From contig JAGXSE010000028.1 of NCBI GenBank assembly GCA_018333865.1, positions 1-58,770 of the forward strand: a DNA stretch of 58,770 bases. Direction: 5' to 3'. Shown here piece by piece: positions 3,213 through 58,054 of this stretch; the first letter of the stretch is position 1; each line of letters starts with the position of its first letter. Source of the DNA: Syntrophomonadaceae bacterium. Its GTDB lineage: Bacteria; Bacillota; PH28-bin88. A program made the translations under genes and the position numbers. Under the pieces are notes generated by a model, which saw only the letters and a program-made list of their open reading frames with translations, did no database searches and had not been told where the DNA came from.

Positions 3213-3644
3213 GTGGCCAAAAAAGCAAAAAAGGTAGTTGGCTTGGTTAAGCTCCAGTGCCCTGCCGGCAAAGCGAATCCGGCGCCTCCTGTGGGACCGG
3301 CCCTTGGTCAGCACGGTGTAAATATCATGGCTTTTTGTAAGGAATTTAACGAGCGGACAGCTAAGGATGCAGGTTTAATCATCCCTGTGGAAATTACGGT
3401 TTATGAGGACAGGTCCTTTACCTTCATTACTAAAACCCCGCCGGCAGCTATTCTTTTGAAAAAGGCAGCCGGTATCGAAACTGCCTCTGGTGAACCAAAC
3501 CTCAAAAAAGTTGCCAAGGTTCCTAGAGAAAAAGTCAGGGAGATCGCTGAGATGAAGATGAAAGACCTAAACGCTGCCAGTGTTGAGGCAGCCATGCGGA
3601 TGATCGAAGGCACCGCGCGAAGCATGGGTATCGACATCGTTTAA
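3213..3644 (+). CDS. rplK: 50S ribosomal protein L11
   Basis: L11 forms the stalk base and the GTPase-associated centre with 23S rRNA. The 143-residue length is normal. The N-terminal domain has the proline-rich [20 protein letters not shown] segment, and the C-terminal domain binds rRNA. GTG 3213 is chosen because it follows AAGGGGGTGG at 3196-3205 and gives [10 protein letters not shown]. Its TAA stop merges directly into a copy of the CGGAACGCGGAATGTCCCC repeat. It is cotranscribed with rplA. Confidence 0.97.
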
Positions 3645-3663
3645 CGGAACGCGGAATGTCCCC
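3643..3663 (+). repeat. GTCCCC-type repeat abutting the rplK stop
   Basis: This is a third copy of the 21-base unit seen at 2195-2215 and 20177-20197. Its leading AA forms part of the TAA stop codon of rplK. It lies in the 137-base gap between rplK and rplA, which is normally very short. Confidence 0.75.
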
Positions 3664-4480: not shown

Positions 4481-4528
4481 TAGCTTGACCGGGCTCCATT
4501 AAAGCATGATCGGCTCCGCAACTGAATA

Positions 4529-4610
4529 CTGGACTGTAGACAGCAGGCGCATTGAAAAATGCTTAATGCCGCAAGGCGCCCGCCGAGGTTTTCGCAAAAA
4601 TTTGCTATTA
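4529..4610 (+). promoter_or_regulatory. L10 leader RNA (autoregulatory), core
   Basis: The 216-base gap ahead of rplJ contains the landmarks of the L10 leader: GTAGACAGCAGGCGC (4536-4550) pairing across a short loop with GGCGCCCGCC, followed by GAGGTTTTCGC. In other Firmicutes this RNA is bound by the L10(L12)4 complex to repress rplJ-rplL. The assignment rests on motif recognition, and the exact boundaries are uncertain. Confidence 0.75.
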
Positions 4611-4696
4611 ACCTGTGGCTTTGGTGTGTCTACGCATCAAGGCCATTGTTTTTAGAGTGTTGAACCAGTTATTGCAGAGGAGGTGTGTATTAGCAA

Positions 4697-17774: not shown

Positions 17775-17869
17775 CAGGACGCAGGACGCAAGAGCCAGAT
17801 GCTTGGGGACTAAAAGCTGCTTATCCATCCTGCCTCCTGCCTCTTGCCTCTTGCTTCTTGCTTCTTGAA
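17775..17869 (+). repeat. ~95-bp palindromic repeat, copy A
   Basis: The element begins CAGGACGCAGGACGCAAGAG and ends with the imperfect complement CTCTTGCTTCTTGCTTCTTG, so it can fold into a long hairpin. The middle (CCAGATGCTTGG...CTTATCCATC) is conserved in copies B (19998-20095) and C (42123-42215). Together with the following GTCCCC repeats it fills most of the 316-base gap before rpsJ, in which no gene is visible. Confidence 0.7.
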
Positions 17870-17872
17870 CGT

Positions 17873-17905
17873 GACAGGAATGTCCCCGAATAAGGGAATG
17901 TCCCC
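17873..17905 (+). repeat. Paired GGAATGTCCCC repeats
   Basis: GACAGGAATGTCCCC (17873-17887) and GGGAATGTCCCC (17894-17905) follow copy A of the palindromic element directly. The same junction, TGAACGGGACAGGAATGTCCCC-like, follows copy C at 42211-42232, which suggests that the two repeat types are linked. Confidence 0.7.
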
Positions 17906-19986: not shown

Positions 19987-20113
19987 GGGGACACACCATT
20001 CAGGACGCAGGAAGCAGGAGACAGGAACCAGATACTTGGGACCAAAAGCCGCTTATCCATCTTGCCTCCTGCCTCCTGCCTCTTGCTTCTTGAATGGGCC
20101 ACACCGCTTAAGT
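19987..20113 (+). repeat. Palindromic repeat copy B flanked by GGGGACACACC-type units
   Basis: GGGGACACACC (19987-19997) is followed immediately by a ~98-base palindromic element (19998-20095) with complementary ends ATTCAGGA... and ...CTTGAAT, then by GGGCCACACCGCTTAAGT (20096-20113). The two outer units resemble each other, so the palindrome looks as if it was inserted into or beside a GGGGACACACC repeat. A short GGTCAGA-type direct repeat follows at 20115-20145. Confidence 0.7.
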
Positions 20114-20154
20114 TAGAGGTCAGAGGTCAGAAGTCGGAAGTCAGAATAGGTAAT

Positions 20155-20200
20155 GGGAATATACCTGCTCAAGTACAACGGAACGCGGAATGTCCCCGAT
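20155..20200 (+). repeat. 46-bp GTCCCC repeat upstream of rplB
   Basis: This is almost the same sequence as 2173-2218 upstream of secE, ending CGGAACGCGGAATGTCCCC. It ends 18 bases before the rplB start, directly ahead of the AAAGGAGG ribosome binding site. Confidence 0.75.
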
Positions 20201-39461: not shown

Positions 39462-39472
39462 GAGGGCAAGTC

Positions 39473-39490
39473 GGGGACGGTTCTTGACTT
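39473..39490 (+). repeat. GGGGACGGTTCTTG repeat
   Basis: GGGGACGGTTCTTGACTT matches the first 14 bases of the repeat that flanks the Y1 transposase at 53094 and recurs at 51510. It sits between two divergent genes, just upstream of the gamma-carbonic anhydrase promoter. Confidence 0.7.
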
Positions 39491-39513
39491 GCTAGGTGGC
39501 GGAGCAGGTGGGA

Positions 39514-41110: not shown

Positions 41111-42124
41111 GTGCAGGCAGCAATGTTTTTTGAAAAAATCGAAGATAGCCATGTCAGGTGCCTTTTATGCCCCCATGCCTGCCGGCTTGGAAGAGGAGAA
41201 ACCGGCAAGTGCCGAGTGCGGGTCAATCTTAACGGCAGCCTGGCAACTGCCAACTATGGTCTGGTAACGGCAATGGCCATGGACCCGATCGAAAAAAAGC
41301 CTCTTTATCACTTCTTTCCCGGCAAGGAGATCCTTTCAGTGGGGACTTTTGGGTGTAACCTGCGCTGTCCTTTCTGCCAGAACTGGTCAATAACCCATGG
41401 TGATTCGCCGAAGAAAAAAATTACTCCTGATTACCTGGTGTCCTTGGCAGAAGCCGCTAAACCGGATGGCACCTGTGTAGGGATTGCCTATACCTATTCA
41501 GAGCCATTGGTCTGGTATGAATTTGTAAGGGACACAGCGGCCTTGGCAGCGGCGAGGAATTTAAAAAATGTGCTGGTAACCAATGGAATGGTGCAAGAGG
41601 CTCCCTTAATAGAGCTGCTTAAATACATTGATGCCATGAACATTGATATTAAGGGATTTTCAGGCCGGTCTTATCAAAAACGGCTGGGAGGTTCTTTGCA
41701 AACAGTTTTAAATACTGCCAAAACAGCTTCCCGGAGAGGCTGCCATGTGGAAATAACCACCCTGATCGTCCCTGGGCTGAATGACCGGGAAGAAGAAATC
41801 GGGGAATTGACAACCTGGATCGCCGACAATCTGGGGGCCGACGTTCCCCTGCATTTGTCCCGCTACTTCCCCAACTACCAGATGACAGCCGACCCTACTC
41901 CGCTTGAGGTGATGGAAATGGCGAGAGATCTGGCCAGGGAAAAGCTAAACTATGTTTATTTAGGTAATACAAACCTGCCGGGGGCTGCTGACACCTATTG
42001 TCCCGAGTGCCAGGCCAAGCTGATCGAACGCCAGGGCTACAGGGTGATCCTGGCCGGGTTGGACGGGAGGACCTGCCGCCGCTGCGGGTATAAGGTATGG
42101 GGACACACCTGCCAGAAATCATGA
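41111..42124 (+). CDS. amrS: AmmeMemoRadiSam system radical SAM enzyme
   Basis: A 337-residue radical SAM protein related to pyruvate formate-lyase activases. The 4Fe-4S cluster motif is CNLRCPFC (C82, C86, C89). The N-terminus has four more cysteines (C17, C20, C24, C34; CLLCPHACR ... GKC), and the C-terminus carries CPEC and CRRCG pairs, suggesting extra metal sites. GTG 41111 follows AGGAGGGAACCAG. It forms a pair with the LigB/AMMECR1 fusion, and the substrate is unknown. Its stop codon coincides with the left end of palindromic repeat copy C. Confidence 0.92.
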   Translation: MQAAMFFEKIEDSHVRCLLCPHACRLGRGETGKCRVRVNLNGSLATANYGLVTAMAMDPIEKKPLYHFFPGKEILSVGTFGCNLRCPFCQNWSITHGDSPKKKITPDYLVSLAEAAKPDGTCVGIAYTYSEPLVWYEFVRDTAALAAARNLKNVLVTNGMVQEAPLIELLKYIDAMNIDIKGFSGRSYQKRLGGSLQTVLNTAKTASRRGCHVEITTLIVPGLNDREEEIGELTTWIADNLGADVPLHLSRYFPNYQMTADPTPLEVMEMARDLAREKLNYVYLGNTNLPGAADTYCPECQAKLIERQGYRVILAGLDGRTCRRCGYKVWGHTCQKS

Positions 42125-42273
42125 CGCAGGATGCAGGAAGCAGGAGGCAAGAGCCAGATGCTTAGAGACTAAAAGCCGCTTTTCCATCCTGTTTCCTGCC
42201 TCTTGCTTCCTGAACGGGACAGGAATGTCCCCAATTTTTACTCTTGCCTCTTGTTTCCTGCCTCCTGAAAGTG
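42123..42273 (+). repeat. Palindromic repeat copy C plus GTCCCC repeat and extra arm
   Basis: The ~93-base palindromic element (42123-42215) matches copies A and B, including CCAGATGCTTAG and the CTTTTCCATC segment. It is followed by GACAGGAATGTCCCC (42218-42232) and another partial arm (CTCTTGCCTCTTGTTTCCTG, from about 42242). The left end starts in the TGA stop of amrS. No plus-strand gene is seen between amrS and argC. Confidence 0.7.
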
Positions 42274-47237: not shown

Positions 47238-48182
47238 TTGGACGCTTTAGCAAGAAAAAAAGACTTTCAAGGCCGGGACTTTATCAGTTTAAAGGACTAT
47301 GCCCCAGAGGAAATTAGCCATCTGCTCGACCTGGCGCAGGAGCTAAAGGCCCGGCAAAAACAGGGCCGGCCCCATCACCTCCTGGCCGGGAAAACCCTGG
47401 GCATGATTTTTCACAAGTCCTCCACCAGGACCAGGGTTTCCTTCGAGGTGGGCATGTTTCAGCTTGGTGGTCATGCCCTTTATCTGGGAGCCGACTTGCA
47501 GCTAAACCGGGGCGAAACCATTGCCGACACTGCCAGGACCCTGTCCCGTTACCTTGATGGCATCATGATCAGGACCTTTGCCCACAAAGATGTTTTGGAC
47601 CTGGCCGAACATGCCTCCATCCCGGTAATAAATGGGCTGACTGACCTCCTGCATCCCTGCCAGGTTTTGGCCGACCTTCTGACGATCAGGGAACATAAAG
47701 GCGGCCTCAGGGGGCTCAAGCTGACCTATGTGGGCGACGGCAATAACATGGCCCATTCCCTCATGTACGGCGGCGCCAAAATGGGCATGCATGTTGCCAT
47801 CGGCTCGCCCCAGGGATACCAGCCAAAGGCGGATATAGTCGCGGCTGCCTGGGAAATCGCCAGGGAAACCGGCGGATCGGTTGAGGTTACTGAAAGCCCC
47901 GAACATGCGGTATCCGGGGCGGATGTGGTGTATACCGATGTCTGGGCCAGTATGGGCCAGGAAGCGGAAAAAGCCGAACGGGCCCGCATCTTTGCTCCCT
48001 ACCAGGTAAATGCCGGCTTGCTTAAAGCCGCCAAGGACGACGGTATTTTCCTGCACTGCCTGCCGGCCTACCGGGGCCTGGAAGTCACTGACGAAGTCCT
48101 GGATGGCCATCATTCCGTTGTCTTCGATCAGGCCGAAAACCGGCTGCATGCCCAGAAGGCCATCATGGCCCTGACTATCTAG
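47238..48182 (+). CDS. argF: Ornithine carbamoyltransferase (anabolic)
   Basis: Makes citrulline from ornithine and carbamoyl phosphate. The 314-residue enzyme has the carbamoyl-phosphate loop SSTRTRVSFE (61-70), HPCQ (139-142) and the ornithine-site HCLPAYRG. The start is TTG 47238 after TTAAGGAGGATATTAG. The TAG stop is the first part of a TAGACAAGGGGACGG repeat, also seen next to the chemoreceptor stop at 58053. Confidence 0.96.
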   Translation: MDALARKKDFQGRDFISLKDYAPEEISHLLDLAQELKARQKQGRPHHLLAGKTLGMIFHKSSTRTRVSFEVGMFQLGGHALYLGADLQLNRGETIADTARTLSRYLDGIMIRTFAHKDVLDLAEHASIPVINGLTDLLHPCQVLADLLTIREHKGGLRGLKLTYVGDGNNMAHSLMYGGAKMGMHVAIGSPQGYQPKADIVAAAWEIARETGGSVEVTESPEHAVSGADVVYTDVWASMGQEAEKAERARIFAPYQVNAGLLKAAKDDGIFLHCLPAYRGLEVTDEVLDGHHSVVFDQAENRLHAQKAIMALTI

Positions 48183-48230
48183 ACAAGGGGACGGTTCTTT
48201 TGTCTTGTTCCTGTCTTGGGCGCTGAATTT
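48181..48230 (+). repeat. ACAAGGGGACGGTTCT repeat abutting the argF stop
   Basis: AGACAAGGGGACGGTTCT, then TTGTCTTG, CCTGTCTTGGGCG and CTGAATT, matches the minus strand of 58001-58054 in order. AGACAA and TTGTCT can pair, forming a small REP-like hairpin. The copy starts inside the argF stop codon. Confidence 0.75.
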
Positions 48231-51499: not shown

Positions 51500-51503
51500 G
51501 AGT

Positions 51504-51532
51504 AAATTCGGGGACGGTTCTTGAATTGAATG
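51504..51532 (+). repeat. 29-bp repeat, exact copy of 53088-53116
   Basis: AAATTCGGGGACGGTTCTTG continuing to TTGAATG is identical over 29 bases to the sequence beside the Y1 transposase end. The rest of the gap to 51844 holds no convincing gene; it includes a short GCCGCC/GGCGGC hairpin (51563-51577) and an A6-G5-T7 run (about 51594-51611). Confidence 0.85.
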
Positions 51533-53056: not shown

Positions 53057-53074
53057 ACTGCTAAGCCTCCACAT

Positions 53075-53116
53075 AAATTCGGGGACTAAATTCGGGGACG
53101 GTTCTTGAATTGAATG
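53075..53116 (+). repeat. Tandem AAATTCGGGGAC repeats at the transposase end
   Basis: AAATTCGGGGAC (53075-53086) is followed after one base by the 29-bp unit 53088-53116. The second unit supplies the left end of the transposase element, and the first lies only 18 bases from the Eis-like gene's start. Confidence 0.8.
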
Positions 53117-54014
53117 TTATGTTTTCAGGATCTTACATACCATTGACTGGGACAAACCTCCACACAGTTCTCCTATTTCCTTAAGGGTTAGCGAAGAATT
53201 CCTTCTTAACCTGCTTATTAGCTCATTTCGGAGGATATTATTGGTTTTTAAGGCGTCGACACTTGCTTGATTTTCTCTGAGTACTTGGGTTATCATTTGT
53301 CGGGCAGTAATTAAAGAATCAATATAACCAGTATTTTCCTTTAAGAAAAGTATTTTATCTTTATCTACGTCCATAATATCTTCTTTTGTTTCGTAATTTA
53401 ATACGTATTTATAGTACTCGTCTACTGCTTTTTTTCTGCTTGTAGACAGAATTCCTAGTACTCGTTCAGCATTCACCATGCCTTCCCTGATCTCGTCCCT
53501 TCCTAAATAGCTATTAAAACTGCTCCACCTGTATTCTTCCGGCAATCTTACAATCTTGGCTATTACCGGGTTATTATGAATATAGGCGCTTAATGCTAAC
53601 AGGTATTTATCGTTGTCAACGCCTTCGCTTTTAAATCTGTCTTGAAACAAGTGGCCAACCCGTTGATAGGTATGATTAAAGTAATAGGCATAGCTGATAT
53701 TAATGCGTTTAATTATTTTTGAGATATCATTTCCATTGTCATTTACTAAAAGATGGACATGATTATCCATAAGACAGTATGCTTCTAAGATAAAGTTATA
53801 CTTTTTTTTCATCCGGCCAATGATATCAAGAAATCTAATTCTGTCTTCATCTTTTAAGAAGATGTTTTTTTGCTCATTTCCTCGTTGGATGATGTGATAT
53901 GTGGAGAATTCTCCTTTTCTTCTAGCTGTTCTAGGCATTTTATTTCATCCCCATCAAAAAAATCGAATGTGTAAATATTACCACATTTGTCAATTCAATT
54001 CAAGAACCGTCCCC
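53094..54014. mobile_element. Y1/RAYT transposase element bounded by 22-bp inverted repeats
   Basis: The sequence from GGGGACGGTTCTTGAATTG (53094) to its complement ending AACCGTCCCC (54014) is 921 bp and contains only the Y1 transposase gene. The two ends match over 22 bases in inverted orientation. IS200-type elements lack terminal inverted repeats, but RAYT genes in other bacteria are flanked by inverted REP sequences, which this resembles. Related single copies lie at 39473, 48187, 51510 and 58030. Confidence 0.8.
53117..53938 (-). CDS. REP-associated tyrosine transposase (Y1_Tnp, HUH)
   Basis: A 273-residue single-strand DNA transposase of the Y1_Tnp/RAYT type. The HUH motif is H60-x-H62 in MDNHVHLLV, followed by YQRVGHLFQDRFKSEG and YLLALSAYIHNNPV; Y112 is the likely catalytic tyrosine by comparison with TnpA-REP. 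The C-terminal 60 residues end in a helix-turn-helix-like TLKEIGELCGGLSQSMVCKI. The frame is intact. ATG 53938 starts MPRTARRKGEFSTYHIIQRG, the usual family opening. Unlike neighbouring genes it is AT-rich, which suggests recent acquisition. Confidence 0.92.
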   Translation of the reverse strand: MPRTARRKGEFSTYHIIQRGNEQKNIFLKDEDRIRFLDIIGRMKKKYNFILEAYCLMDNHVHLLVNDNGNDISKIIKRINISYAYYFNHTYQRVGHLFQDRFKSEGVDNDKYLLALSAYIHNNPVIAKIVRLPEEYRWSSFNSYLGRDEIREGMVNAERVLGILSTSRKKAVDEYYKYVLNYETKEDIMDVDKDKILFLKENTGYIDSLITARQMITQVLRENQASVDALKTNNILRNELISRLRRNSSLTLKEIGELCGGLSQSMVCKILKT

Positions 54015-54141
54015 ATTTTTACCTATTTTCATTCTATCATTCTATCTTAAGTAAGCAGGAAAATTTGGTTGTAAGGATAAATATACATATTGTTTTTTGC
54101 TTCCAGCAATAGAGAATCAAGGCCGGAAAGGAAGTTTCGCC

Positions 54142-58000: not shown

Positions 58001-58054
58001 GAATTCAGCGCTCACGCCCAAGACAGGAGAACCGTCCCCTTGTCTCCCTTGTCT
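58001..58054 (-). repeat. ACAAGGGGACGGTTCT repeat abutting the chemoreceptor stop
   Basis: Read on the minus strand it starts in the TAG stop of the chemoreceptor, then AGACAAGGGAGACAAGGGG, ACGGTTCTCCTGTCTTGGGCG and, six bases later, CTGAATT. It matches the copy at the argF stop (48181-48230) in order and position relative to the stop codon. Confidence 0.75.

Follow-up and report, generated by a model that had tools for sequence, protein, structure and literature searches.

The window, the stretch of 58,770 nt analysed here, contains a gene for a Y1/HUH transposase of 273 amino acids, bounded by two inverted hairpins (Table 1). The protein matches the Y1_Tnp family of Pfam (E=4.2e-18). Its HUH motif had been read as intact from the DNA letters, and this is borne out by the residues H60, H62, and Y119, which are invariant in 33 of 33 aligned sequences. 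The AlphaFold (AF2) model of the protein has a mean pLDDT of 88.7, and its best match among solved structures is 4er8, TnpA_REP bound to its hairpin (E=1.3e-7), followed by IS608/ISDra2. A sequence profile of the transposase also retrieves 4er8. The Y1 core of the model is followed by C-terminal helices beyond residue 190, and the relatives of the transposase give weak matches to HTH_23, Sigma70_r4, and Bac_DnaA_C, every one of them below the Pfam cut-off. The protein scores 65 bits against the NCBIfam REP transposase model (cut-off of 80 bits) and 21 bits against the IS200 family model (cut-off of 55 bits), and reaches neither threshold.

The exact 22-bp inverted repeat that the sequence-only reading had placed around the gene is present as GGGGACGGTTCTTGAATTGAAT at 53094 (+) and 54014 (-). 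Four further exact copies are located at 39473, 48187, and 51510 (+) and at 58028-58039 (-), at most 2 nt from where they had been claimed. Base composition by itself predicts about 0.01 exact matches to the 12-mer in the window. The hairpin at the upstream end of the element is degenerate, and its outer arm, AAAAAT, pairs poorly. The hairpin at 58028 and the end of the adjoining chemotaxis-receptor-like gene are near-identical to a stretch of another contig (L078:329), indicating that this stretch has been duplicated.

The more distant GTCCCC-ended units, which had been taken for relatives of the repeat, belong to a separate family with unlike ends, GGGGACATTCC and GGGGACACACC, and without the ...GGTTCT block. 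The grouping of all units starting with GGGGAC into one family was rejected. The members of this second dispersed family are about 50-160 bp long, have the ends GGGGACACACC and GGGGACATTCC, and are often nested or arranged in tandem. A pattern covering both ends has 36 matches in the genome. The window also contains a ribosomal protein L10 leader (RF00557) at 4516-4658. At about 1233 and 17354, a GGGGACCTTGTTAAGAGG site is embedded in nearly the same sequence, and these two stretches are probably duplicated elongation-factor genes.

Table 1. Positions of the transposase gene, hairpins, and dispersed elements (window coordinates unless a contig is given).
Feature	Position	Strand	Description
Y1/HUH transposase gene, TIRYT-type	53117..53938	(-)	273 aa; NHVH motif H60/H62, catalytic Y119, C-terminal helical HTH domain
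Gene-downstream element end	53087..53116	(+)	Hairpin TAAATTC-[GGGGACGGTTCTT]-GAATTGAATG
Exact 13-nt tandem duplication	53074..53086	(+)	TAAATTCGGGGAC, the 5' half of the downstream-end hairpin; begins at its foot
Gene-upstream element end	53993..54021	(-)	GGGGACGGTTCTTGAATTGAAT block shared with the other end
Solo hairpin	39466..39492	(+)	Stem family GCAAGTC/GACTTGC
Solo hairpin	48182..48204	(+)	Stem family GACAA/TTGTC
Solo hairpin	51503..51531	(+)	Stem family AAATTC/GAATT, that of the window transposase
Solo hairpin	58021..58045	(-)	Stem family GACA/TGTC; 9-nt left-foot tandem duplication adjoining
Second-family elements	2051-2215, 3643-3663, 17868-17905, 19987-20197, 42099-42232		
GGGGACGGGGTT-tip subfamily, six copies	C23:40959-41726, C27:71309-71824, C27:74638, C52:18414, C3:3924, C71:77623		

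Hairpins with an invariant tip and variable stems

The repeat is spread over the whole genome (3.21 Mb in 71 contigs), in which GGGGACGGTTCT occurs 130 times (61 on the plus and 69 on the minus strand), compared with a single occurrence (0 plus, 1 minus) of the reversed control. Flanking sequence was examined for about 100 of the 130 sites, and 103 sites enter the site statistics. Only 15 of the 103 are positioned in predicted genes, mostly near gene ends, whereas 79.6% of the bases are coding, with both the coding fraction and the gene placement taken from a simple home-made hexamer gene caller. The copies are thus enriched between genes, in keeping with the intergenic placement noted from the sequence alone. 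Six contigs (C1, C14, C27, C36, C46, and C61) have a hairpin copy in roughly their first 350 bp, and the assembly may break at the repeats or at elements carrying them. A literature search for the repeat sequence itself, in mostly non-subscription literature, returned unrelated matches only; an earlier publication of these hairpins is possible.

Comparison of the sites side by side confirms the suspected secondary structure, in which the 12-mer is the tip of a hairpin of about 30 nt rather than a linear terminal repeat. The sequence GGGGACGGTTCTN forms the invariant tip of the hairpin, and the lower stem of about 6-8 bp varies between families yet stays complementary. The stem families include AAATTC/GAATT, GACAA/TTGTC, GCAAGTC/GACTTGC, GGAAGCA/TGCTTCC, and AACACAA/TTGTGTT. 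When position -k is paired with position +(12+k), the first G being 0, 68% of the cells for k=1-8 in this genome are Watson-Crick pairs, versus 17-27% when the register is slid by 1-3. The covariation was evaluated in 35 sequences from about 30 genomes, a set made up of one sequence per genome where possible and of five local subfamilies. Paired cells make up 77.1% of this set versus 47.3+-2.4 after shuffling, the covariation score is 0.736 versus 0.211+-0.029 shuffled and at most 0.20 slid, and all eight stem pairs (8/8) show changes on both sides. Conservation within a single family extends from about -8 to about +20, indicating that the hairpin itself is the repeated unit.

The tip is predicted to prolong the helix in the same register, with GGGGA facing TTCTN through pairs that include G.T, and to close with a CGG triloop. 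The tip is near-invariant and offers few sequence variants, and the fold of this upper part is a folding prediction rather than a covariation result. At +12, the position predicted to pair with the first G, 103 of 103 sites of this genome have a pyrimidine, and the tips of relatives include GGGGACAGTCCCC, GGGGACGGTCCT, and GGGGACGGTTCC; both observations agree with the predicted fold. Identical 12-mers that occur once in transposase-free genomes often have no stem (L110-L112). The stem strength of multi-copy and single-copy genomes, compared at one site each, does not differ significantly (p=0.29), since some of the single copies are genuine hairpins.

The hairpins occur singly or as facing pairs, similar to REPINs or MITEs, scattered between genes and belonging to at least five stem families. 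In this genome, 14 pairs face each other and 0 stand back to back, and in other genomes the counts are 24 and 2 (38 versus 2 in total); the spacing within many pairs is 34-65 bp.

Association of the hairpins with the transposase and its mobility

The repeat is not equally common in genomes that lack the transposase family. A relative of the transposase (E <=1e-10) is encoded in 96 of the 299 genomes surveyed in the phylum, and five or more copies of the repeat are present in 55 of these 96 but in only 9 of the 203 others, in which no TIRYT was detected (odds ratio 29, p=2e-24, with the kinship of the genomes ignored and matches in 110 genera). Conversely, 24 of the 96 TIRYT genomes contain 0-1 exact copies; some of these have variant tips and some lack recognisable inverted ends. 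In many other genomes the TIRYT genes are positioned between facing hairpins, the stems of which differ from genome to genome; these loci were not turned to the gene strand, which leaves the facing arrangement unaffected. No GGGGAC repeat was found near the genes of two delta-proteobacterial relatives.

Within this genome, the ends of the paralogues differ in stem type. The window gene has ends of the AAATTC type and the paralogue on C50 ends of the GACA type, the gene fragments on C20 and C27 have AACACAA-type ends, and the transposase group on C23, C27, C52, and C3 has ends of the GTGTCAA/GGGGACGGGGTT type with the tip GGGGACGGGGTT. For the stem families GCAAGTC and GGAAGCA, no matching transposase was found in this assembly. 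The sister subfamily with the GGGGACGGGGTT tip (subfamily C) comprises six copies with 90-94% DNA identity, some of them internally deleted, and their own hairpins flank them wherever the contig extends far enough. This subfamily resembles an insertion element with recent activity. The six hairpin-bounded copies indicate that whole units have moved in this lineage, and at the level of the genome they contradict the description of the transposase as domesticated, although they belong to the sister subfamily and not to the window copy.

Duplications at the hairpin foot and a proposed mechanism

Exact tandem duplications with a unit of 8-60 nt cluster at the hairpins. The scan that identified them was not tied to the hairpin; it covered the sequence within 120 bp of the sites in this genome and, for other genomes, stretches from the phylum. 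For the 39 duplications in this genome, the 5' foot of a hairpin is the starting point of 27, the 3' foot is the end point of 5, and 7 are located elsewhere; the corresponding numbers in other genomes are 25, 2, and 14. In the pooled set, 52 of 80 start at the 5' foot and 7 of 80 are at the 3' foot. The background rate away from the sites of this genome is 0.048 per kb. The usual duplicated unit consists of the left arm and 1-4 G, and a few units extend through the hairpin into the local flank. The starts of the duplications are fixed (about -5 to -12), whereas their ends are variable (about 0 to +35). The ambiguity of the ends is mostly 0-2 nt, indicating little microhomology.

The window probably contains a TIRYT-type transposable element, in which the Y1/HUH gene is bounded by two inverted hairpins of about 30 nt and would be mobilised through a nick at the hairpin foot. 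Each transposase subfamily would recognise the common tip together with its own stem on the GGGGAC strand. This strand would be nicked at the hairpin's 5' foot, a site read from the sequence pattern, with the formation of a 5'-phosphotyrosine, the intermediate established for Y1 enzymes. Such nicking would mobilise short copies as well as the full element. Less certainly, the 3' end freed by the nick may sometimes grow by 8-13 nt before the covalently held enzyme rejoins it to the 5' end; this would produce a tandem duplication of the left arm and 1-4 G anchored at the foot. The cuts made by TnpA_REP proteins, that of E. coli among them, fall at CT or CA close to the hairpin and are confined to one strand (PMC8266576), and a single-strand cut close to the foot would be analogous to this cleavage. 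It is conceivable, but considerably more tentative, that TIRYTs in general recognise a near-universal tip and a swappable, co-evolving stem and nick the 5' foot, and that duplications formed by extension and resealing record their activity across Firmicutes.

Two other accounts of the gene and its repeats can be weighed against a TIRYT element. The sequence-only reading had assigned the locus to the REP/RAYT systems, and part of this holds: a Y1/HUH gene is flanked by a repeat that forms hairpins, lies between genes, and is spread over the genome, and gene and repeat are strongly linked across the phylum. A canonical REPtron, with a domesticated single-copy transposase and GTAG-footed palindromes, would fit the homologous Y1 core and fold, the dispersed intergenic hairpins, and their facing pairs, but it is very improbable. 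It is largely refuted by the absence of the foot, as a GT[AG]G tetranucleotide lies 5' of the hairpin at 3 of 103 sites in this genome and 3 of 136 sites in others, and the C-terminal HTH domain, the sister subfamily of multi-copy whole elements, and the missed NCBIfam cut-off also speak against it. Even less credible is a regulatory role of the repeats at the RNA level, for instance as hairpins with a GGA-containing tip to which a protein binds, combined with an incidental link to the transposase. Such hairpins could have a conserved tip and an intergenic placement; however, the orientation of the repeats relative to flanking co-directional genes is random (30 co-directional, 32 opposed), transposase genes are flanked by inverted copies in many genera, the presence of the repeat follows that of the transposase, and no Rfam match was found at the repeats of the window.

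The duplications allow further explanations of their own. Hairpins stall polymerases, and ordinary replication slippage at the hairpin would make the left-foot duplications uninformative about the cut site. Most duplications end within the 5' half of the hairpin, in agreement with slippage, which is the strongest competing account, though of the duplications alone. We nevertheless consider it somewhat unlikely, given the fixed starts and variable ends, the 52 left-foot against 7 right-foot cases, the scarcity of microhomology, the rate of 0.05-0.07 per kb elsewhere, and the coincidence of the duplication start with the conservation boundary. Another copying error provoked by the hairpin could also give rise to the duplications. 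The partial copies at the left foot might instead be truncated elements inserted beside existing ones, with an existing end as the preferred target, just as clusters and tandem arrays are known from REP families (PMC3733652). This is a rather poor candidate, as the units exactly duplicate the adjacent arm, including arm variants specific to the locus, and some enter locus-specific flanks that an incoming element does not carry (a 43-nt unit, L086).

If nicking at the foot by a TIRYT transposase is correct, the foot-anchored duplications are a sequence footprint that predicts the cut site and strand, and a common intergenic repeat in Firmicutes genomes is accounted for. The hairpins would then also provide a ready substrate for biochemistry and a natural experiment in the co-evolution of a nuclease and its DNA hairpin.

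Comparison with known systems

To our knowledge, TIRYTs are a large, little-studied class of uncharacterised function. The class and the term TIRtron were named by Di Nocera 2013 for RAYT-like proteins with terminal inverted repeats containing GGGGWSAS (PMC3733652). Quentin 2018 ties TIRYTs to TnpA-Y1 subclass 2.1, the second largest TnpA-Y1 subclass, with a C-terminal HTH, for which neither automatic nor manual search found REP-like sequences (PMC6006769). The gene of the window fits TIRYT or subclass 2.1 by its core, length, HTH, and GGGG-type ends, an assignment by features rather than by placement in a tree. The motif of its inverted ends, GGGGACGG, agrees with GGGGWSAS except at position 7 (G, not A), and GGGGACAG variants flank some relatives of the transposase.

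The IS200/IS605 elements IS608 and ISDra2 share the HUH/Y1 core, hairpin ends, and movement as a unit with the element described here. However, their subterminal hairpins are positioned on one strand and are not inverted, whereas the ends here are inverted repeats, no tetranucleotide guide is recognised in the present element, and the protein falls short of the IS200 family model. The similarity to REP/RAYT systems (REPtrons) and REPINs lies in the Y1 nuclease fold represented by 4er8, the dispersed intergenic hairpins with facing pairs, and a single hairpin family for each known transposase. In contrast to these systems, the hairpins here lack the GTAG foot and have a conserved tip with a stem that is free to vary, the protein carries an additional HTH domain, and whole units have moved, unlike published REPtrons.

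The features shared with TIRYTs and subclass 2.1 are the RAYT-like Y1 protein with a C-terminal HTH, the GGGG-type flanking inverted repeats, and the moderately abundant dispersed copies, dimers, and clusters. The published repeats were described without a REP-like structure. The GGGG block of the present repeats, in contrast, forms the tip of a hairpin whose stems co-vary, and the system is further distinguished by the motif GGGGACGG, more than 100 copies, subfamily-specific stems, and foot-anchored duplications. If the proposed reading is true, subclass 2.1 does have the REP-like partner sequences reported as absent (PMC6006769), and these hairpins are REPs the other way round, their tip being constant and their stem variable.
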